Below are positions 4,425 through 33,651 of a DNA stretch of 42,983 bases, piece by piece. Where the stretch lies: positions 280 through 43,262 of the forward strand of contig JANWVZ010000006.1 of the NCBI GenBank assembly GCA_025056555.1, in the 5' to 3' direction. Within the stretch, counting starts at the first letter, position 1. Each line of letters opens with the position of its first letter. Position numbers and translations under genes: made by a program. Origin of the DNA: Gemmatales bacterium. GTDB taxonomy: Bacteria; Planctomycetota; Planctomycetia; Gemmatales; HRBIN36. The notes beneath the pieces were generated by a model. That model was given only the letters and a program-made list of their open reading frames with translations. It had not been told where the DNA came from and made no database searches.

Positions 4425-4584
4425 GGTCTCTGGAAGCTGGCCCACCGGCTCGGCTAAGGTTATGGAAAGGCGCTTGCTGGCAGCCTGCCGCGGGAAGGAT
4501 TATGCTATTGGGTCGTGCTGAGGGGCGTGTACTTGGCACACAAGATTGGTGCCGAGCTTGGCTTATGGGGAAGAGAACCGCGCT

Positions 4585-5217
4585 GTGTCTTGGCCAAGAC
4601 CTTTGATATTAGCGAGTAGTTCCCCTGCACGGCGGGAATTGTTGCGGAAATATGGCTTCGACTTTGAGGCCATGCCTCCGCAAATCGAGGAGCCGGACGG
4701 AATTGGAGTGACTGATGTACGTCCGTATGTGGCGGAGTTAGCTTGGCGAAAAGCGTATGCCGTGGCTTCGCGAGTCAGCTTCGGTATCGTCGTCGCCGCT
4801 GATTCCGTGGGTTGGCATCAAGGCGAGGTCATCGGCAAGCCCTTGGACCGCGAGCACGCGCGCAGCATATTACTGCGCCTCAGCGGAACAGTTCATGAGT
4901 TGTGGACGGGGGTGTGTGTCTGGGTGCGTCCGGAAAATTGGCAGCTTGCCTGGCAGGAAAAGAGCACGTTGTCCATGAGGCCTTTTTCGGAGGCTGAGCT
5001 AGAAGCGTACCTCGATTCTGGCCAGTGGCAGGGCAAGTCCGGCGCCTATGCCATCGAAGAACATAACGACCCATACTTGACGGTGCTGGAAGGCACGGTG
5101 AGCAACGTAGTAGGTTTTCCCATGGAGACGTTCTGCAAGGTGTGGCATCATTATCTGCCCATCCTGACGAGCGGAGCCGCACTTGGAAACCGCGTTTCTG
5201 GCGAAGCTATGCAATAA
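4585..5217 (+). CDS. maf: Maf-like nucleoside triphosphate pyrophosphatase
   Basis: House-cleaning pyrophosphatase that hydrolyses non-canonical or specific NTPs to NMP and diphosphate. Seen: the N-terminal Maf signature ILASSSPARRELL, the central AADSVGW (usually ADT) with the catalytic aspartate, GKPLDREHARSILLRLSG, and the C-terminal GKSGAYAIEE segment. I chose GTG 4585, with GGGGAAGAG nine bases upstream; this gives 210 residues, the normal family length. TTG 4546 and GTG 4549 upstream would add 12-13 residues but have no ribosome-binding site. Threonine to serine in the AD[TS] motif may reflect a subfamily difference in base preference. Confidence 0.9.
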   Translation: MSWPRPLILASSSPARRELLRKYGFDFEAMPPQIEEPDGIGVTDVRPYVAELAWRKAYAVASRVSFGIVVAADSVGWHQGEVIGKPLDREHARSILLRLSGTVHELWTGVCVWVRPENWQLAWQEKSTLSMRPFSEAELEAYLDSGQWQGKSGAYAIEEHNDPYLTVLEGTVSNVVGFPMETFCKVWHHYLPILTSGAALGNRVSGEAMQ

Positions 5218-5309: not shown

Positions 5310-5630
5310 GTGCTGGTCAAAATTTCCGCCCGTCACGGTCAGCTTTCGCCGGAACTGCAAGACTTTATTCGGGAGAAAGCGGAGCGGCTGGTGCATTATT
5401 TTGATCGGTTGATGGCGGTGGAAGTAACCGTAGACCTCAAAGGAGACAGGAAAGAGGTGGAATTCCTGGTCTCAGCAGAGCACAAGCATGACTTCGTCGC
5501 ACGTGAGTCGGCGGGAGATGTCCGAGCTGCCGTGGACATGATTTTGGACAAGCTCGAAAGGCAACTGACTCGCTATAAGGAAAAGCTTCAGGATCATCGG
5601 CGCACTCCACCTATGGGAGGGGTGCCTTAG
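5310..5630 (+). CDS. hpf: short ribosome hibernation promoting factor (HPF/RaiA family)
   Basis: Binds the decoding centre of the 30S subunit and stabilises inactive ribosomes in stress or stationary phase. The 106 residues cover one S30AE/sigma-54-modulation domain: a beta-alpha-beta start (VKISARHGQLSPELQDFI), the basic helix EKAERLVHYFDRL, strands rich in V/E, and the second helix with DMILDKLERQLTRYKEKL. It is a short type without the long-HPF dimerisation domain. The start is GTG 5310 with AAGGAG at 5297-5302. It sits directly before a PTS EIIA gene, as in the proteobacterial rpoN-hpf-ptsN operon, though no rpoN is present. A second HPF domain occurs in the fusion protein at 30910. Confidence 0.93.
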   Translation: MLVKISARHGQLSPELQDFIREKAERLVHYFDRLMAVEVTVDLKGDRKEVEFLVSAEHKHDFVARESAGDVRAAVDMILDKLERQLTRYKEKLQDHRRTPPMGGVP

Positions 5631-5773
5631 TCGGCTCAGGGTTGGAGCCGGGCCGCAGCGTTAGGCACTGGGTCGGTCGCAGCCAGGGCCGAGTTCCAGC
5701 AAGCCATGCTGCTGGCCAACGACTGTGGCAGCCAGTCGTCTCAGGATTCCTGAGCACAGAAAGGGCTTAGCCC

Positions 5774-6241
5774 ATGCGCATGTCGGAATTCGTCATCAAA
5801 GAAGCCCTGATCCCTAACTTGACACAGACCACGAAGGAAGGCGTCATTCGGGAGATGGTAGAATCGCTGAAACGCAGTGGCCACATCAAAGCCAGCCAGG
5901 TGGAAAGTATCGTCAAAGCGTTGCTGAAGCGGGAGCAGTTAGGCTCCACGGGCATCGGCCACGGAGTGGCCATTCCCCATACCAAGCACGAAGGGGTCGA
6001 TCGCCCCATCGGCACGGTGGCTGTTTCTCACCAGGGGGTGGATTTTCAGAGCATTGACAATGAGGCGGTTTATATCTTTGTCCTGCTGATTTCCCCTTTG
6101 GAACGGACGGGGGAACATCTGCGGGCTTTGGAGAATGTGACGCGCAATTTGCGCAACGAAACCTTCTGCCGCTTTCTGCGTCAGGCGACAACGGCCGACG
6201 AAATCTGGGAACTGATCCTCGAAGCGGAAGGCAGTGCCTGA
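5774..6241 (+). CDS. ptsN: PTS EIIA component, PtsN/fructose-type (EIIA-Ntr-like)
   Basis: Accepts phosphate from HPr on a histidine and probably regulates partner proteins. The phosphorylation site is H69 in GHGVAIPHTKHEG, typical of the fructose/nitrogen EIIA family. The second conserved histidine is H116 in ERTGEHLRAL. At 155 residues it is a stand-alone EIIA with no fused EIIB or GAF domain. It lies between hpf and the HPr gene. AAGGGC precedes ATG 5774, and ATG 5780 is an in-frame alternative. With no EIIB/EIIC nearby, a regulatory phosphorelay is more likely than sugar uptake. Confidence 0.93.
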   Translation: MRMSEFVIKEALIPNLTQTTKEGVIREMVESLKRSGHIKASQVESIVKALLKREQLGSTGIGHGVAIPHTKHEGVDRPIGTVAVSHQGVDFQSIDNEAVYIFVLLISPLERTGEHLRALENVTRNLRNETFCRFLRQATTADEIWELILEAEGSA

Positions 6242-6317
6242 AGCGGTGCGCCACGGCAACCCGTCACCGTAACAGACGCTGCTCCGACATCCCAGTTATC
6301 CCGCAGGGCAAGGAGCG

Positions 6318-6596
6318 ATGCCTCAGCAGCGCGTGGTGCGCAGCGTCACCATTGCCGACCGGCAAGGATTGCATGTGCGCCAGGCCGTGGAATGTGCTCG
6401 AGCCGCCGCTCGATTTCAATGCCAGATCATTCTGGTTCACGGAGAGCGGCGGGCGGAGAACTGTCGCAGCCCTTTTGACATTCTGCAACTGGGAGCCGGC
6501 TACGGTGCGGAAGTGACCATTGAGGCTATCGGTTCCGATGCGCAGGAGGCGGTCGAAGAGATTGCCACCATTCTCAGTCGTGAATTTCCTAATTGA
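6318..6596 (+). CDS. ptsH: HPr-family phosphocarrier protein
   Basis: Phosphocarrier between enzyme I (next gene, 21 bases downstream) and EIIA. The active site is GLHVRQA with H19 and R21. The family consensus GLHARPA is altered: alanine is valine and the proline after the arginine is glutamine (Q22). A serine (S51 in CRSPFDIL) aligns with the Ser46 that HPr kinase phosphorylates in other bacteria, though the following residue is proline rather than Ile/Leu. The length (92) is normal. AGGAG lies two bases before the ATG, an unusually tight spacing. The variations suggest a specialised Npr-like role; function is inferred from family and operon. Confidence 0.9.
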   Translation: MPQQRVVRSVTIADRQGLHVRQAVECARAAARFQCQIILVHGERRAENCRSPFDILQLGAGYGAEVTIEAIGSDAQEAVEEIATILSREFPN

Positions 6597-6617
6597 GCAG
6601 ATACGCCTATTGCCGAC

Positions 6618-8366
6618 ATGGAAATCAAGCGCGGAGTTGCCGTTTCGCCTGGAGTAGCCATCGGGCCAGCCTGGGTGCTGGACACAGAAGAAGTACGCAT
6701 CGGCGAACGTTTCATCGCTCCGGGGACTTATCCGGAAGAGATTGAACGCTTTGATCGCGCAGTGCGATCTGCAGCCGGCGAGGCGCGGCAGGTGCAGAAG
6801 ACTGTTTCCGAACGCCTCGGCGAGCAATATGGCGCCATCTTTGGCGCTCATGCCGCCCTTATTGAGGATCCCAGCCTACGCCAAGAGGTGGCGGCGCAGA
6901 TTCGCGACCAAGGTTTCACTGCCGAGTATGCCCTCAGCCGCGTTATCCGGCGTCGGGCCAAACTTCTGGCAGGACTGAACGACCGCATTCTGGCCGACCG
7001 CCAGAGTGATTTGTTCGACATTGAAAAACGCCTGTTGCGTCAATTGGTCGGTCAGCGTCAGCAGCAGTTGCAGAAGCTTTCTCAGCCCACCATTCTCCTG
7101 GCCCATGATTTGACTCCCAGCGAAACGGCGCAACTGGATCGCCGACAGGTCCTGGCTTTTGCGACGGAAGCAGGCGGCCGCACCAGCCATACCGCTATTG
7201 TGGCCAACGCGCTGGGCATCCCGGCAGTGGTCGGTTTGGGGCCTTTCCTGACCGACGTATCCGGGGGCGATCTGGTAATCGTAGATGGCAATCGCGGCGT
7301 TCTCATCCTGGACCCCGATGCTGAGACCTTGGAGCATTACCGCCAAGCTCAGCAAGCGCAGGCTGGTCATGAGCGGGAGTTGGTCGAATTGCGCGATTTG
7401 CCAGCGGTTACGCGGGACGGCGTGCGCATTTTCCTGCTGGGCAACATCGAGTTTCCCGAAGAAGCTGCCCAAATCCTGGAACGCGGCGCCGATGGTGTGG
7501 GTTTGTATCGCACTGAGTTCCTCTATCTCGGTCGCAAGGAAGATCCCACCGAGCAGGAACATTTCCAGGCTTACCTTCAGGTGCTGCGTCAACTTCCCAG
7601 CAAGCCCATTGTGATTCGTACTCTGGACATCGGCGCCGACAAATTCAGCTCGGTAACCGAGCCGCTGGCGCAGGAGCGCAACCCCTTCCTCGGCGTGAGG
7701 AGTTTGCGGTTATGCTTACATAACAAAAATCTGTTTCGCGTGCAACTGCGAGCCATTTTGCGGGCCAGCGCTTACGGCGACATCCGCATTATGTTTCCCA
7801 TGGTCAGCACCCTGGCGGAGTTACGCGAAGCCAAGCTTCTGCTGTACGACGTCATGGAAGAACTCAGTGAAGAACAAGTGCCTTTTAACCAACGCATCCC
7901 TGTCGGCACAATGATAGAAGTACCGTCAGCGGCCCTGATGGCCGACCAGTTGGCTCGGGAGGTAGATTTCTTCTCTATTGGTACCAATGATCTCATCCAG
8001 TACGTGTTGGCAGCCGATCGTACCAACGAAAACGTCGCCTATTTGTATAACGCCTCCGACCCCGCTGTGCTTCGACTGATTGACCAGGTGGTACGTGCCG
8101 CTGAGCGTGCTCGGATTCCCGTCAATGTTTGCGGGGAGATGAGCGCCGAGCCAATGTATGCCTATTTCCTGGTCGGCATCGGGTTGAGGCAACTGAGCGC
8201 TTCGCCTCACGCCATACCAGAAATCAAACGGTTGGTGCGCTCTATCACTGCCGAAGACGCCCGCCGCGCCGCCCAAGCCGTGTTGCAAATGGAAACTGCT
8301 CAGGATATTACTAGCTACTTACGCGACCAGCTTCGCCGTATCCTCCCCGAGGCACTGGCCGTCTGA
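6618..8366 (+). CDS. ptsI: phosphoenolpyruvate-protein phosphotransferase (enzyme I)
   Basis: Transfers phosphate from PEP to HPr. Domains in order: an N-terminal HPr-binding helical domain, a swivelling phosphohistidine domain with H191 in GGRTSHTAIVANALGIPAV, and the C-terminal PEP-binding TIM barrel with GVGLYRTEFLY, VIRTLDIGADK, GVRSLRLCL, IMFPMVSTLAEL, GTMIEVPSAALMAD, FFSIGTNDLIQY and VNVCGEMS (active-site cysteine). At 582 residues it is a plain enzyme I without the GAF domain of PtsP. It closes the hpf-ptsN-ptsH-ptsI set; no permease components are present here. Confidence 0.96.
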   Translation: MEIKRGVAVSPGVAIGPAWVLDTEEVRIGERFIAPGTYPEEIERFDRAVRSAAGEARQVQKTVSERLGEQYGAIFGAHAALIEDPSLRQEVAAQIRDQGFTAEYALSRVIRRRAKLLAGLNDRILADRQSDLFDIEKRLLRQLVGQRQQQLQKLSQPTILLAHDLTPSETAQLDRRQVLAFATEAGGRTSHTAIVANALGIPAVVGLGPFLTDVSGGDLVIVDGNRGVLILDPDAETLEHYRQAQQAQAGHERELVELRDLPAVTRDGVRIFLLGNIEFPEEAAQILERGADGVGLYRTEFLYLGRKEDPTEQEHFQAYLQVLRQLPSKPIVIRTLDIGADKFSSVTEPLAQERNPFLGVRSLRLCLHNKNLFRVQLRAILRASAYGDIRIMFPMVSTLAELREAKLLLYDVMEELSEEQVPFNQRIPVGTMIEVPSAALMADQLAREVDFFSIGTNDLIQYVLAADRTNENVAYLYNASDPAVLRLIDQVVRAAERARIPVNVCGEMSAEPMYAYFLVGIGLRQLSASPHAIPEIKRLVRSITAEDARRAAQAVLQMETAQDITSYLRDQLRRILPEALAV

Positions 8367-27281: not shown

Positions 27282-28436
27282 CTAATAGCGCAGCAACGCG
27301 GCGAGGCCGTCACGTTCATCCAGTGCAGGATGGTCCCAGTAACGTACCTGGGCGGACTGAGCAACCGCTTCGCGCACGGCCTCTTCGTAAATGTCGGACA
27401 CGGTCTGAACAGCCGCACCACATTCAATGCAAGGCCCACCGCTCAGATGCAGCCGACCACATTGCGGACAAACGTGGCCGTGATAGTGAGTATTCGGCTT
27501 GACCAGCAGGTGCCAGACCCGTCTTTGCCACAGTCCGCGGAACACCTGCTCGGGGCCAAACGCCTGCTGGGAACTCGGCGCGTTGTTCAGTTGTTGCCAC
27601 AGTTGTTGTGCCTGGTGCTCGAGTAACTTCTGTTCTTCCTGCTGCAATCGCGAACGCAACTCCGTCCTGGGAATATGCACATTGACCTGCCAGCGGGCTA
27701 CAATCAGATCTTTCAGATAACGATGCAAATGCGACTCGAATTGAGGCAGAATCTCCCAAAGTCCGCCCACAATCAGATAGCGGAATGGTTCCAATTCCCA
27801 CAAGCGCAGCACATGAAACGCCACCCACTCGAAGTGCTGGTGAAAATGTTCGACATGTTTGCGCCGAAACTGTAGCTCTCCGAAAGCGTCGGGGATACGA
27901 ATCTTGGGCGGCACTTCATCAAAAATGTAAGTAACCTCCTCGACCTCACCGAGATAACCAAGAAACAACTTGGCTTCGTCTTTATCCACCAGAACGATGC
28001 CAAACGGATCCGATTGTTCGAGTGCCTGCCGCAAAGGCCACAGGACAAACCTTTGTTCCAGGAAATGCTGCTGACGCAGTGGCCAGGGCAGCGGAAAAGC
28101 GTAGGCCATGTTTTCGGCACTGGCTATGAAACAAGCCAGACCGCGCATGCCTCGCCTTCCGGCACTGAGATGTGCCACCTCGTGCATCAGCTCAATCTCG
28201 TCCAACAGCCGCTGCCGTTCACCGTTACTCAATCCGGGCAATCTATGAACCTGTTCTCGCAATTGCCCCGCTGCATTCTTGAGGGCGATACGTGTGCCCT
28301 CGATGTCACCCCAACGTCGGGGATCCACGTCCCAATAGACACTCAGCACGTATTCCTGCGGCCGGTGTACACTTTCCAGTTGCCTCACTATGCGGCGCGT
28401 CAAGACTCCTTCATAAAGCTCCAGGCGTCGCGGCAT
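27282..28436 (-). CDS. baeRF-family protein (eRF1/Vms1-like) with zinc ribbon
   Basis: Resembles the bacterial archaeo-eukaryotic release factor (baeRF) families, probably family 10. It has an N-terminal region, a middle domain beginning FGIVLVDKDEAKLFLGYLG and VEEVTYIFDEVPP, the basic helix FRRKHVEHFHQHFE, then LIVGGLWEILPQFESHL. The third domain contains a zinc ribbon (C323, C326, C336, C339) and ends in LAALLRY, typical of these proteins. Relatives of eRF1/Vms1 cleave peptidyl-tRNA on terminated or stalled ribosomes; I see no GGQ motif, so hydrolase activity is unproven. Its location with three Hsp20 genes and a divergent HPF-sigma protein supports a ribosome-stress role. Confidence 0.75.
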   Translation of the reverse strand: MPRRLELYEGVLTRRIVRQLESVHRPQEYVLSVYWDVDPRRWGDIEGTRIALKNAAGQLREQVHRLPGLSNGERQRLLDEIELMHEVAHLSAGRRGMRGLACFIASAENMAYAFPLPWPLRQQHFLEQRFVLWPLRQALEQSDPFGIVLVDKDEAKLFLGYLGEVEEVTYIFDEVPPKIRIPDAFGELQFRRKHVEHFHQHFEWVAFHVLRLWELEPFRYLIVGGLWEILPQFESHLHRYLKDLIVARWQVNVHIPRTELRSRLQQEEQKLLEHQAQQLWQQLNNAPSSQQAFGPEQVFRGLWQRRVWHLLVKPNTHYHGHVCPQCGRLHLSGGPCIECGAAVQTVSDIYEEAVREAVAQSAQVRYWDHPALDERDGLAALLRY

Positions 28437-28907: not shown

Positions 28908-29390
28908 TCAGGATGCCTTCACAGGTACTTTACGTCCCGCCGCACCCGGTTTCTTACCGACATGAACTTCCAACACCCCGCTATGGTACTTTGCTTCCAC
29001 CCGCTGTGGATCAATCACATTAGGCAGGGTTACCAGACGATGAAAGCTCCGATAGCTCACTTCCTGGTAGGCGCGGCCTTTTTCTTCCTTCTTTTTCTCG
29101 GCCTTCTTCTCCGCTCGGACAATGAGGCGGTTACCGCTCAACTGCACGTCGAATTCTTCGGGCTCAAAACCAGGAACGTCCAGCTTGACCACGTATTCCT
29201 TATCAGTTTCGGTTAATTCGACGTTGCCCCAGCGTTCTGATTCTTCTTCGGCTGCGGGGAGTTTTCCGAAAAAGCGGTCCACCAGTCGGTCTAATTCATC
29301 CCGCAACCTCGCCAGGGGGCGGAAGAATTCTTCTTCGACGGTCACAGGCACCTTCGTCTCCTTCCTGCGCCAGGGTAGTAGCTTGAACAT
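28908..29390 (-). CDS. Hsp20 family small heat-shock protein (third in cluster)
   Basis: ATP-independent holdase that keeps unfolding proteins soluble. The alpha-crystallin domain runs from about 52 to 145: VELTETDKEYVVKLDVPGFEPEEFDVQLSGNRLIV, then SYRSFHRLVTLPNVIDPQRVEAKYHSGVLEVHVGK. Unlike the other two copies it has a lysine/glutamate-rich segment (EKKAEKKKEEKGRAYQ) in the loop linked to dimerisation. The N-terminal arm is charged rather than aromatic-rich. AAGGAGGAG precedes the ATG. It is the third of three tandem paralogues. Confidence 0.93.
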   Translation of the reverse strand: MFKLLPWRRKETKVPVTVEEEFFRPLARLRDELDRLVDRFFGKLPAAEEESERWGNVELTETDKEYVVKLDVPGFEPEEFDVQLSGNRLIVRAEKKAEKKKEEKGRAYQEVSYRSFHRLVTLPNVIDPQRVEAKYHSGVLEVHVGKKPGAAGRKVPVKAS

Positions 29391-29482: not shown

Positions 29483-29872
29483 TCAACTCGTCTTTACGGT
29501 GATCCGCTTGGGCTTCACCGCTTCCCGTTTGGGCAAGTGCAGTACCAGGACACCCTGGGTGAGTTCGGCAGAAATCTTGTCGCTATCAATTTCCTCGCTG
29601 ATCGTGAAAGTGCGATAGAAGTCGCCTACACCGTATTCCCGCAGCAAAAATTCGCCCTTCTCCGGACGAGGCGCCACCTTGGCATGCAAAGTGAGTTCGC
29701 CATTCTCAAAGCGAATATCCAAATCCTCGGGACGAACGCCGGGAAGATCCGCGTACAGCCGCAGTTCATCCGCGGTTTCCACCACGTCTACCGGCGGTGA
29801 GTAAGTGACCGTACGAACGGGTTCTGCTGCGGTTACCTCTCCTCGGTGCTCTCGTTTCACAATGTTAGCCAT
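29483..29872 (-). CDS. Hsp20 family small heat-shock protein (second in cluster)
   Basis: Small heat-shock chaperone of 129 residues with a short N-terminal arm. Alpha-crystallin domain: PPVDVVETADELRLYADLPGVRPEDLDIRFENGELTL, then REYGVGDFYRTFTISEEIDSDKISAELTQGVLVLHLPK, with the A-x-x-x-x-G-V-L-x-L-x-L signature of the family. It is the most compact of the three and clearly diverged from both neighbours, so they are not recent duplicates. AAAAGGAGGTGA lies just upstream of the ATG. It is expected to be co-transcribed with the upstream copy. Confidence 0.94.
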   Translation of the reverse strand: MANIVKREHRGEVTAAEPVRTVTYSPPVDVVETADELRLYADLPGVRPEDLDIRFENGELTLHAKVAPRPEKGEFLLREYGVGDFYRTFTISEEIDSDKISAELTQGVLVLHLPKREAVKPKRITVKTS

Positions 29873-29967: not shown

Positions 29968-30420
29968 TCAGACTGCTTTGACCGTAATCTTGCGAGGCTT
30001 GGCCTCTTCGCATTTCGGCATGACAATGGTCAGCACACCATTTTGCAATCGTGCCTCAACTTTGTCGGCCTCGACATCTACAGGTAATGTCACGATGCGG
30101 TGGAAGCTGCCAAACGGTCGCTCCTGCCTGAGCCAAGTGCCTTTTTCCACCTGGGGTGCTTTACGCTCCCCCTTGATACTGAGCTGGTTCCGGCCAGTGA
30201 CGTAAATCTCCAGATCCTCCAGGGCCATGCCTGGAAGCTCCAACTCTGCATAGACATTGGCTTCGTCTTCCCAAACGTTGATAGGCGGATAACCCGCGGT
30301 CAGAGAAGGCCAGCCGTACCCCTCCCAACCCCAACGCTCCAAGAGCCGGTCCATCTCACGGCGAAAATTCTCCATTTCCCGCCACAGTCCTGCTAAGGGT
30401 TCCCAGCCTAGCCGTGCCAT
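29968..30420 (-). CDS. Hsp20 family small heat-shock protein (first in cluster)
   Basis: First gene downstream of the sigma-54-type promoter. The N-terminal arm is tryptophan/aromatic-rich (LGWEPLAGLWREMENF, WGWEGYGWPS), as in oligomer-forming sHsps. The alpha-crystallin domain follows: PPINVWEDEANVYAELELPGMALEDLEIYVTGRNQL, then PFGSFHRIVTLPVDVEADKVEARLQNGVLTIVMPK. The C-terminal KPRKITVKAV holds an I-x-V anchor. It has 150 residues; AAAGGAGGTG sits six bases before the ATG, a near-perfect ribosome site that suggests strong expression. Confidence 0.95.
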   Translation of the reverse strand: MARLGWEPLAGLWREMENFRREMDRLLERWGWEGYGWPSLTAGYPPINVWEDEANVYAELELPGMALEDLEIYVTGRNQLSIKGERKAPQVEKGTWLRQERPFGSFHRIVTLPVDVEADKVEARLQNGVLTIVMPKCEEAKPRKITVKAV

Positions 30421-30871: not shown

Positions 30872-30909
30872 CAATAAGCCAAATTGCCACAAACAGGAAG
30901 GAGCTGAGC

Positions 30910-31938
30910 ATGCGCACTCATGTAACCTTTCACCACTGCGATAAGCCAGTGGTGGAGGATGTCGAGGCTTATTGGGAAAAGAAATTGCCGAGAATCGAGC
31001 ACCTGTTACAACATTATGCCCCGGACGCTGTAGAGCTTCGTCTGACTGTATGGCATCACCACCAGCGAATCGGTTACCAGGCGCGAGCAGTGTTGCATTT
31101 GCCGTCAGGAACTTTGGTGGCGGACGAAACTGCTAAGGACCTGCACGCTGCCTTAGACGCGGCGATGGACACGTTAGTCCAGAATCTGAAAAAACACGAG
31201 GAGCACATCCGCCGCGATGACGTCTATCGTCGCCATCGTGGGCGTCGGGCCGATGTCAGTGCCGCGGGGCCTATCCTGCAACGCGACCTCGAACAAGGCC
31301 GCCACGATGCCTTTTTCCAACTAATGCGACCCGCCCTGCGCACGCTCCGCCGTTATGCGCAACGGGAAATCCGCCTGCTCGAACTGGAAGGGCTGTTGGC
31401 CGAGCGTGATTGGTCGGTCAGCGAACTTATGGATGCCCTGATTTCGTTAGCGTGGCAGCGTTTCTCTCAACGACCCAAGGACGTGGCTATGGACGTTTGG
31501 CTCATGGATTTGCTGCACGAACTACTGGCTGATTGGACTGCGCAGCGCGCTGAGCAGCGTGCTGAAGATATGGTAATCCCTCCTGCTTCGGAAGGGGAAG
31601 AGATCGAACCGGTCAGTTACAATGAGCAATTGCGTTTGGAGGAGTTGGTGCCCCAGAGTCAACCTCTCCCCAGTTGGAACGCCCTGTCCGCTTCACAGCA
31701 ACATGAAAAGCTCCTGCAGTGGCTGAGTAAACTTCCCAGCCGCCCACGACAAGCCTTCCTGCTCCATGTTCTTGAGGACTATCAGCCTTCTGAAATCGCT
31801 GTCATCCTCCGGCGTAGTGAAGACGACATACGCAAGTACATCGAACAAGCACGCCAACACCTCATCCACTGCCTTCAGCTCGAAGGGTATGTCCAGATTA
31901 CGCAGGGCGGGAACGCGGCTGGTTCTACGGGCAGTTAG
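30910..31938 (+). CDS. HPF/RaiA domain fused to a divergent sigma-70-like (regions 2 and 4) module
   Basis: Residues 1-105 read as a ribosome hibernation (S30AE) domain: FHHCDKPVVEDVEAYWEKKLPRIEHLL, strands VELRLTVWHHHQ and YQARAVLHLPSGTLVADE, and helix DLHAALDAAMDTLVQNLKKHEE. Residues 130-215 look like ECF sigma region 2 (FFQLMRPALRTLRRYAQ, SVSELMDALISLAWQRF, VWLMDLLHELLADW). Residues 268-325 match sigma region 4 (LQWLSKLPSRPRQAFLLHVL, YQPSEIAVILRRSEDDIRKY, IEQARQHLI). An acidic linker (219-250) separates them. AAGGAG lies six bases before the ATG. It is divergent from the Hsp20 cluster. A link between ribosome state and transcription is inferred; DNA binding is unproven and region 2 is weak. 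Confidence 0.78.
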   Translation: MRTHVTFHHCDKPVVEDVEAYWEKKLPRIEHLLQHYAPDAVELRLTVWHHHQRIGYQARAVLHLPSGTLVADETAKDLHAALDAAMDTLVQNLKKHEEHIRRDDVYRRHRGRRADVSAAGPILQRDLEQGRHDAFFQLMRPALRTLRRYAQREIRLLELEGLLAERDWSVSELMDALISLAWQRFSQRPKDVAMDVWLMDLLHELLADWTAQRAEQRAEDMVIPPASEGEEIEPVSYNEQLRLEELVPQSQPLPSWNALSASQQHEKLLQWLSKLPSRPRQAFLLHVLEDYQPSEIAVILRRSEDDIRKYIEQARQHLIHCLQLEGYVQITQGGNAAGSTGS

Positions 31939-32573: not shown

Positions 32574-33056
32574 ATGATAAGCGGTCAAGAGTTAGTAACA
32601 GGCTTGGTAAGCCAGGGTGTGACCCATTGGCTCTGGATACCGGACAGTGAACTCGGCCGATGGGAAACAGACCTGGTCAGCCACCCGCGGCTACAACTTA
32701 TCCGTGTGAGTCGCGAAGCAGAGGCGATTGGCATCGCTGCGGGATTGATGTTGGGCGGAAAGAAGCCCATCGTTGCGATGCAGTGTACTGGCTTTTTCGA
32801 TGCCGGCGATGCGTTTCGCAATGTCGTGCATGACCTGCATCTGCCGCTCTTCCTGATTCTTGGTATTAGGAATTACCTTGCGTATCAGGAGCGCCGCACC
32901 ACGGATAGCTGCCCGCGCTTCACCATACCCGTGCTCGAGGCCTGGCGCGTGCCTTTCCAGATACTAAGTCCCGAGGCTACCGCAGCAGATCTCGTGCAGC
33001 TATACCGAGAAGCGCAACGTCGCGGGGAGGCGTTCGTCGCAGCACTTCCCGAATAA
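32574..33056 (+). CDS. TPP-dependent decarboxylase, alpha (PYR) subunit, sulfopyruvate/phosphonopyruvate type
   Basis: The N-terminal half of a thiamine-diphosphate enzyme encoded as a separate subunit. It has the PYR-domain layout with the cofactor-activating glutamate E48 in SREAEAIGIAAGLMLGG, then VAMQCTGFFDAGDAFRNVV and LILGIRNYLAYQERRTTD. Sulfopyruvate decarboxylase (ComD/ComE) and phosphonopyruvate decarboxylase share these features. The partner subunit follows after 25 bases. At 160 residues it matches ComD size. No coenzyme M or phosphonate genes are nearby, so the true 2-oxo acid substrate is unknown. The ribosome site is weak. Confidence 0.8.
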   Translation: MISGQELVTGLVSQGVTHWLWIPDSELGRWETDLVSHPRLQLIRVSREAEAIGIAAGLMLGGKKPIVAMQCTGFFDAGDAFRNVVHDLHLPLFLILGIRNYLAYQERRTTDSCPRFTIPVLEAWRVPFQILSPEATAADLVQLYREAQRRGEAFVAALPE

Positions 33057-33081: not shown

Positions 33082-33651
33082 ATGACCGCTGAACAAGCGT
33101 TGGCCGTTCTGGCGCAACACCGGGGTAACGCGATGGTGATTACAACCATGGGCGCGGTAGGCATTTGGCCGCGACTATCCGATACTCCCCTCGATTTTGC
33201 TTATATGCCGTCCGCCATGGGGGAAGGCCCCGCCTTAGCTCTGGGCTTGGCGTTAGCCCAACCCCAGCGCCGCGTGATTGCCATTTGTGGCGATGGTAGC
33301 CTGCTGATGAACCTCGGTTGCCTGGTAACGATAGCCAATTATCCGGCAGAGCTGTACCTGGTAATCCTGGATAATGGCTTATACGAAGTCACTGGGGGAC
33401 AGCCGATCGTCGGTTCCCGTCGCATTCACTTTGGTCTCCTGGCCCAGGGAGCAGGTATTCGACGCACGTATCACTTTACTGATCTGCAGTCCTGGGAACA
33501 GTCTGCCGGCCTATGCTTAGAACCCCCTGGTCCCGTGGTCATTTGGCTGGAAATAGAAGGTCGGCTCGGACAAAAAACTCCTTCACCGCCCCGTTCCATG
33601 CGCGACCAAATTGAGCGGCTTCATCGGGCCCTGGCAATTGGCAACGTTTAA
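33082..33651 (+). CDS. TPP-dependent decarboxylase, beta (PP) subunit, sulfopyruvate/phosphonopyruvate type
   Basis: The C-terminal, diphosphate-binding half of the enzyme. The TPP motif GDGS starts at residue 70 and ends with DN at 97-98 (ligands D71 and N98 around magnesium). Upstream is the MGEGPALALGLALAQP segment with the pyrimidine-contact loop MGAVGIW. With the alpha subunit it would form the active site at the interface. The length (189) fits ComE. GGGGGAG is two bases before the ATG. As for alpha, a sulfopyruvate, phosphonopyruvate or other 3-substituted pyruvate may be the substrate. Confidence 0.82.
   Translation: MTAEQALAVLAQHRGNAMVITTMGAVGIWPRLSDTPLDFAYMPSAMGEGPALALGLALAQPQRRVIAICGDGSLLMNLGCLVTIANYPAELYLVILDNGLYEVTGGQPIVGSRRIHFGLLAQGAGIRRTYHFTDLQSWEQSAGLCLEPPGPVVIWLEIEGRLGQKTPSPPRSMRDQIERLHRALAIGNV

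Follow-up and report, generated by a model that had tools for sequence, protein, structure and literature searches.

Does the gene described here encode one protein that joins a ribosome hibernation (HPF) domain to a sigma factor, and if so, can its sigma part still act on promoters? Ribosome hibernation and sigma-factor control are two main arms of bacterial dormancy, and we know of no single described protein that physically joins them. The gene lies in the window, the whole 42,983-nucleotide stretch of Gemmatales DNA analyzed here (Table 1). The original prediction read it as an HPF domain fused to ECF-like sigma regions 2 and 4, possibly coupling ribosome idling to promoter choice or using the sigma-like part to bind RNA or protein. 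We find that the fusion is real, and that HPF, a diverged ECF sigma region 2 and a sigma region 4 are present in one protein. The sigma-derived part is probably a module that docks on proteins and does not bind promoters. The leading explanation, to which we assign a probability of roughly 0.4, is a specialized accessory hibernation factor whose sigma module works by PhyR-like sigma mimicry.

Table 1. Positions of the fusion gene, its parts and related genes in the window.
Feature	Position	Strand	Basis
HPF-sigma fusion gene, 342 aa, ATG start	30910..31938	+	ORF; full length kept in homologues; dN well below dS in every domain
Shine-Dalgarno-like AGGAG, ATG 6 nt downstream	30899..30903	+	direct sequence reading
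S30AE/HPF domain part	30910..31215	+	Pfam PF02482, E 3.8e-10; Foldseek to V. cholerae HPF 4hei, TMt 0.88-0.89
Basic helix (RRDDVYRRHRGRR) bridging HPF and sigma2, residues 103-118	31216..31263	+	AlphaFold
Sigma region 2-like module, residues 120-219, 2.3/2.4 face acidic	31267..31566	+	hhalign against ECF region 2, Prob 96.1; charge and residue comparison
Variable sigma2-sigma4 linker, residues 220-260	31567..31689	+	pLDDT below 50 over 216-238; highest dN among regions
Sigma region 4-like module, residues 261-324, recognition helix acidic	31690..31881	+	PF08281, E 1.5e-11; PhyR_sigma-like PF22233, E 4.9e-11; charge comparison
Canonical short HPF, 106 aa, the host's ordinary hibernation factor	5310..5630	+	PF02482, E 3.7e-20; ORF
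Hsp20 chaperone, divergent from fusion gene	29968..30420	-	PF00011, E 5.6e-21
Second Hsp20 gene	29483..29872	-	PF00011, E 3.4e-18
Third Hsp20 gene	28908..29390	-	PF00011, E 1.2e-22
baeRF family 10 gene, beside the three hsp20 genes	27282-28436	-	E 3.5e-18

Both ends of the window protein are recognized by Pfam, the N-terminus as S30AE and the C-terminus as sigma, so that neither of the two missing hits named as refuting the original prediction occurred. The Ribosomal_S30AE model (PF02482) covers residues 5-100 with 40.8 bits against a gathering score of 23.7, and is matched by 12 of 12 fusion members, with L022 just under the cut-off. Sigma70_r4_2 (PF08281) covers residues 266-318 over its gathering score, and the PhyR_sigma-like model PF22233 fits the same region with a nearly equal E-value; sigma4 is over the Pfam cut-off in the members checked. 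For the module as a whole, the NCBIfam model sigma70-ECF (TIGR02937) aligns with residues 134-321 under its cut-off. Pfam Sigma70_r2 matches one of 12 members (E 0.065), compared with six of six genuine ECFs far over the cut-off.

The middle part, earlier likened only loosely to ECF region 2, was compared by hhalign, with a 21-member profile set against region 2 of 13 ECFs that the genome itself encodes. The loose likeness turns out to be a remote relationship. The match has a Prob of 96.1 and an E-value of 3.3e-9, and both the 2.2 helix and the WL core align in register. Controls reach a Prob of at most 0.7, whether they are profiles with shuffled columns (20 in all) or queries with the HPF domain. 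Aligned over its full length with complete ECFs, the sigma module reaches Prob 99.2 and E 6.6e-20, with regions 2 and 4 following in order. A 12-member profile searched against the PDB finds the ECF sigma 7qh5 over positions 143-329 (E 7e-15) and the HPF 8uu4 over positions 3-110 (E 3e-14). We conclude from these profile comparisons that the region 2 homology is real but remote. The three-part architecture is thus borne out by Pfam, hhalign, the PDB profile matches and the AlphaFold models discussed below. A coding G+C pattern extends across all parts of the ORF.

A chance or assembly fusion is ruled out, because full-length homologues occur in many independent genomes. One full-length homologue shares 66% identity and belongs to the same genus, others elsewhere in the order share about 42%, and distant members at about 20% identity are found in other classes of Planctomycetota. 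Among the carriers are Gemmatales SKYB77, KatS3mg105, Gemmataceae SKYG72, and Planctomycetaceae S146_10 and S141_3, together with two Centralia soil MAGs and a Pirellulaceae MAG, in which the locus ends within the gene copy. Full-length homologues across several Planctomycetota families have the same domain order. A contig profile search with the single window protein returned no loci; a six-member alignment used instead returned eight. Surveyed across the phylum, the architecture recurs patchily. In an even draw, a match extending past the HPF domain is found in at least about 14 of 294 Planctomycetota genomes (about 5%), members are found in at least about 13 of 199 genomes of the class, and some HPF is present in at least 220 of 246 genomes, all counts being lower bounds with a limited number of candidates scored per genome. 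In a tree of the HPF domain, fusion and canonical HPFs fall on opposite sides of one branch. With its weak support (57/85), this branch makes a single origin of the fusion HPFs likely, short of proof.

The patchy distribution, at least about 5% of sampled Planctomycetota genomes, would fit a decaying fusion whose C-terminal part has no selected function. We consider this the least probable of all readings. As judged from substitution rates, all three domains are under purifying selection: dN is about 0.08-0.25 against a dS above 1 in HPF, sigma2 and sigma4 alike, with synonymous sites near saturation. Against decay stand a dN/dS that does not exceed about 0.2 in either sigma domain, a level like that of HPF, the intact reading frames of the complete copies examined and position-specific replacements that are fixed in all members.

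Several Planctomycetia carry a shorter HPF-sigma2 form of about 210-280 aa that ends after region 2 (L070-L073, L075, L076 and L149; for example L070:1372-2094, L071:1354-2109, L072:1279-2163 on the minus strand, L073:1423-2136, and L076:1402-2136 on the minus strand). It keeps the C-terminal pattern WLE.LIDP...PDEE..ISFAR. The short proteins are a second branch of the family, in which a sub-lineage dropped sigma4. Other partial forms were seen as well. L074:1099-2046 (minus strand) keeps the HPF and sigma4-like parts and has largely lost region 2. L016:1387-1791 (minus strand) and L017:1501-1926 (plus strand) are lone HPF domains that belong to the fusion type and differ from canonical HPF. 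Each comes from a genome of genus g23 that has the full fusion as well.

The key observation for function is the state of the surfaces with which a sigma factor contacts DNA. The 13 ECFs of the same genome served as reference, and the p values given here ignore relatedness among family members. From the WL motif through region 2.4, net charge changes from +4.8 in the ECFs to -2.8 in the family (p 1e-6), with ranges that touch at one value. In the recognition helix of region 4.2 it changes from +2.9 to -1.4 (p 6e-6), and the ranges do not overlap. Individual residues follow the same trend. The Gln of the DxxQE motif, present in 12 of 13 ECFs, is Asp or Glu in 21 of 21 family members, and the Asn, His or Arg of region 2.3 has mostly given way to acidic residues or others. 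In the recognition helix, the RAR motif has its Arg in 11 of 13 ECFs and lacks it in 15 of 15 family members.

These findings bear on the main idea of the original prediction, an active ECF-type sigma factor under ribosome control, which HPF would hold on idle 30S subunits and whose release would lead to transcription, or the reverse. In its favor, sigma2 and sigma4 are present in the right order and sigma4 exceeds the Pfam cut-off in the members checked. In contrast, the DNA faces of both sigma regions are charge-inverted, the equivalent of the region 2.3 Asn and the recognition-helix Arg are lost family-wide, and Pfam fails on sigma2. We reject an active sigma factor on the grounds of charge inversion and residue loss, leaving this reading a very small probability, and promoter choice in the sense proposed is not supported. 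Since the faces are acidic where DNA would bind, binding of promoters or rRNA by them is unlikely, as far as sequence comparison can tell, and protein docking is the natural reading. Of the alternative binding module offered by the original prediction, the protein-binding version fits; the acidity of the sigma surfaces makes the RNA-binding version a poor fit. A coupling of ribosome idling to transcription is possible only indirectly, through putative sigma mimicry or docking to RNA polymerase.

Which protein could be docked? The known sigma mimic is PhyR, which acts in the general stress response of Alphaproteobacteria and whose sigma2 and sigma4 serve as a mimic and not as a sigma (PMC4598750). 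PF22233, the PhyR_sigma-like model, matches ten of 12 family members and none of six genuine ECFs. AlphaFold models of the window protein (pLDDT 76, pTM 0.50) and of the L060 homologue (pLDDT 84, pTM 0.74) both contain HPF, a four-helix sigma2 and sigma4. In Foldseek searches with both models, the sigma part as a whole best matches closed, anti-sigma-bound ECFs with a TMt of 0.59-0.78 (RpoE-NepR, CnrH-CnrY and SigW-RsiW; 5uxx, 4cxf and 5wuq/5wur). RNA polymerase-bound ECFs are a poor match (TMt 0.29-0.38), as are some anti-sigma-bound ECFs in other poses (1or7, AlgU-MucA; TMt 0.34-0.41). CnrH-CnrY has been superimposed on PhyR-NepR (review, PMC4598750). The resemblance of the predicted closed sigma2-sigma4 pose to anti-sigma-bound ECFs is suggestive only, and AlphaFold may adopt this pose by default for any ECF. 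A viral structure library contained separate HPF-like and sigma-like phage proteins only, and no fusion was seen there.

A literal PhyR-NepR system is ruled out, as NepR was found in none of 15 fusion-carrying genomes with a positive Caulobacter control. An anti-sigma gene also does not recur beside the fusion gene in the loci compared, and a conserved anti-sigma neighbor was rejected on this ground. The absence of NepR from 15 of 15 genomes, together with the absence of a recurrent anti-sigma neighbor, leaves no candidate partner. The single case of a sigma-like gene with a second gene nearby is the distant member L117, where 5598-7479 on the minus strand holds a gene whose match to sigma region 4 stays below the cut-off, and a protein without assigned function that, by eye, may be anti-sigma-like. 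The best-conserved residues of the family (E153, F185, [RK]188, P189 and D195) are located in sigma2, are family-specific and are not shared by ECFs. As conserved residues new to the family, they hint at a new partner and not at a copied sigma interface.

We rank sigma mimicry first, and a bridging function in ribosome complexes second. Mimicry is favored because both sigma domains are kept in order and match the PhyR model. A new interface, for example in ribosome bridging, is favored by the absence of NepR, by conserved residues that are new to the family and by the form lacking sigma4. A sigma-derived tail would then replace the C-terminal dimerization domain of long HPFs (lHPF) and join two ribosome-bound copies, or the tail would bind a ribosomal protein, giving 100S-like or otherwise protected ribosomes with the sigma fold as a handy scaffold. 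Such a tail sits at the position of the lHPF C-terminal domain. In the L060 model HPF helix 2 runs straight into sigma2 as one continuous helix (residues 77-127); in the window model the joining helix has low confidence. The short form consists of HPF and sigma2 only, the part in which the best-conserved, family-specific residues are found.

The complement of hibernation factors in planctomycete genomes also bears on bridging. The lHPF dimerization domain PF16321 has no match above the cut-off in 22 of 22 planctomycete genomes, with eight of 14 control genomes matched by the same search, and RMF has none in 15 of 15 genomes. PF16321 is also not among the Pfam matches of the window protein, and an lHPF with a diverged C-terminal domain is ruled out by the lack of a PF16321 match above the cut-off. 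These results speak for a replacement dimerizer. On the other hand, a general need for one seems to be lacking, because most sampled planctomycetes do not have the fusion and PF16321 is unseen in all genomes tested. Moreover, the long forms keep a recognizable sigma4 core under purifying selection, which exceeds the needs of a scaffold. We regard bridging as rather unlikely, but as the runner-up.

Binding of the HPF domain to the ribosome is likely, short of proof. The basic helix-2 positions 94, 95 and 97 are kept in 67-76% of members; positions 25, 35, 88 and 104 are mostly not. The canonical RHG motif, the EHKHDF loop and the DHRR tail are lost from the alignment of the fusion family. With so many canonical HPF positions gone, the domain may not bind the ribosome in the usual way. 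The canonical hpf of the host is adjoined by a Maf gene (4546-5217) and, by eye, a ptsN-like PTS IIA gene (5774-6241). Linkage of hpf and ptsN occurs in other bacteria.

A third docking partner could be RNA polymerase itself. The sigma2-like part would dock on the beta-prime clamp and tether RNA polymerase to idle ribosomes or block it there, with promoters left unbound. The 2.2 helix, which contacts beta-prime, is among the better conserved parts, and Asp or Glu is kept at position 172. Against clamp docking, all 21 members have Asp or Glu in place of the DxxQE Gln, which binds core. HPF helix 2 faces the mRNA exit side of the ribosome, and RNA polymerase in known expressomes lies away from there, so that the direction of this helix also argues against docking on the clamp. 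We consider this reading improbable, clearly below bridging.

The genes around the fusion may point to a setting of stress. Divergent hsp20 and fusion genes are found at four loci in two genera, the window included, as a raw count, and at a fifth locus hsp20 lies three genes from the fusion gene. In the window, the three hsp20 genes and the baeRF gene are upstream of the fusion gene; baeRF genes are associated with HPF genes and translation shutdown in a published survey (PMC6514570). The intergenic region between hsp20 and the HPF-sigma gene shows no conserved block in the alignment that would indicate a shared promoter motif, and no CIRCE-like match. Promoter-like and terminator-like sites occur about as often as in shuffled sequence. 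At other loci, a hemerythrin-domain gene of Gemmataceae SKYG72 (L058:5441-5926) starts two bases past the HPF-sigma stop, and the two probably form one operon; at L122, which has the short form, a universal stress protein gene is next downstream. Downstream of the fusion gene in the window, two adjacent small ORFs resemble a thiamine-diphosphate decarboxylase, 32574-33056 its N half (below the cut-off) and 33082-33651 its C half (E 1.9e-17).

For sigma mimicry, the mechanism could work as follows. The N-terminal HPF domain would most likely occupy the channel for mRNA and tRNA on idle 30S subunits. The C-terminal two-thirds would be an ECF sigma factor that was captured by fusion and no longer works as a sigma, apparently with its sigma2-sigma4 fold kept and its promoter-contacting surfaces lost and inverted in charge. 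This part would now be a protein-docking module, most likely a PhyR-type sigma mimic, offering the shape of a sigma to a sigma-binding protein. An anti-sigma factor is the likelier candidate here, ahead of RNA polymerase. By occupying idle ribosomes, the protein would alter the level of the free partner, or bring the partner to parked ribosomes. Given the Hsp20 neighbors, protein-folding stress is a plausible setting, in which the protein may be induced. A more complete version of this mechanism seems rather doubtful. In it, ribosome hibernation would act directly on transcription control. An anti-sigma factor (or RNA polymerase) would be captured by the mimic attached to HPF on idle ribosomes, and the activity of a stress sigma would depend on how many ribosomes are parked. 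The short HPF-sigma2 form would belong to this system as its second branch.

With a mimic as its sigma part, the protein would make parked ribosomes feed directly into transcription. With a bridging tail, it would represent a new way to hibernating ribosome complexes in a phylum without detected known dimerization factors. Either outcome would place another example next to PhyR, in which a sigma factor has become a module that does not bind DNA. A simple annotation rule could prevent mislabelling of such proteins as sigma factors: inverted charge, Asp or Glu in place of the DxxQE Gln, and [RK]P before WL. The HPF-sigma architecture was not described in the literature searched, a scope that excludes subscription papers and preprints, and domain databases may already list the combination.

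The relation to known systems can be followed from the N-terminus onward. With short HPF/RaiA (YfiA), the fusion shares the S30AE fold (TMt 0.88-0.89 to 4hei), and the basic positions on helices 1 and 2 are partly kept. Short HPF is the S30AE domain alone, whereas the fusion adds the sigma module and is without the RHG, EHKHDF and DHRR motifs. Like lHPF, for example of S. aureus (PF02482 and PF16321), it combines HPF with a C-terminal extension that possibly acts outside the decoding channel; the extension is the PF16321 dimerization domain in lHPF and sigma2-sigma4 here. The closest hibernation fusion we found is HibA, the archaeal CBS-HPF protein (PMC13324472). As far as it is described in the main text, HibA is likewise a lineage-specific hibernation factor with HPF joined to an unrelated module. 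It is an archaeal protein with an N-terminal CBS module and a C-terminal HPF, whereas the fusion is bacterial and carries HPF at the N-terminus. Its authors screened bacterial HPFs for fused domains, and the main text names no sigma fusion (PMC13324472). In comparison with ECF sigma factors, homology extends over the whole sigma2-sigma4 module. The fusion differs from them in its inverted DNA-contact surfaces, the loss of the DxxQE Gln, a helix 2.1 that is about ten residues longer, and the HPF domain in front. PhyR likewise combines sigma2-sigma4 with degenerate DNA contacts, and region 4 of the fusion scores on PF22233. PhyR carries a receiver domain and binds NepR; the fusion carries HPF instead, with no receiver domain detected by Pfam and no NepR in the 15 genomes.
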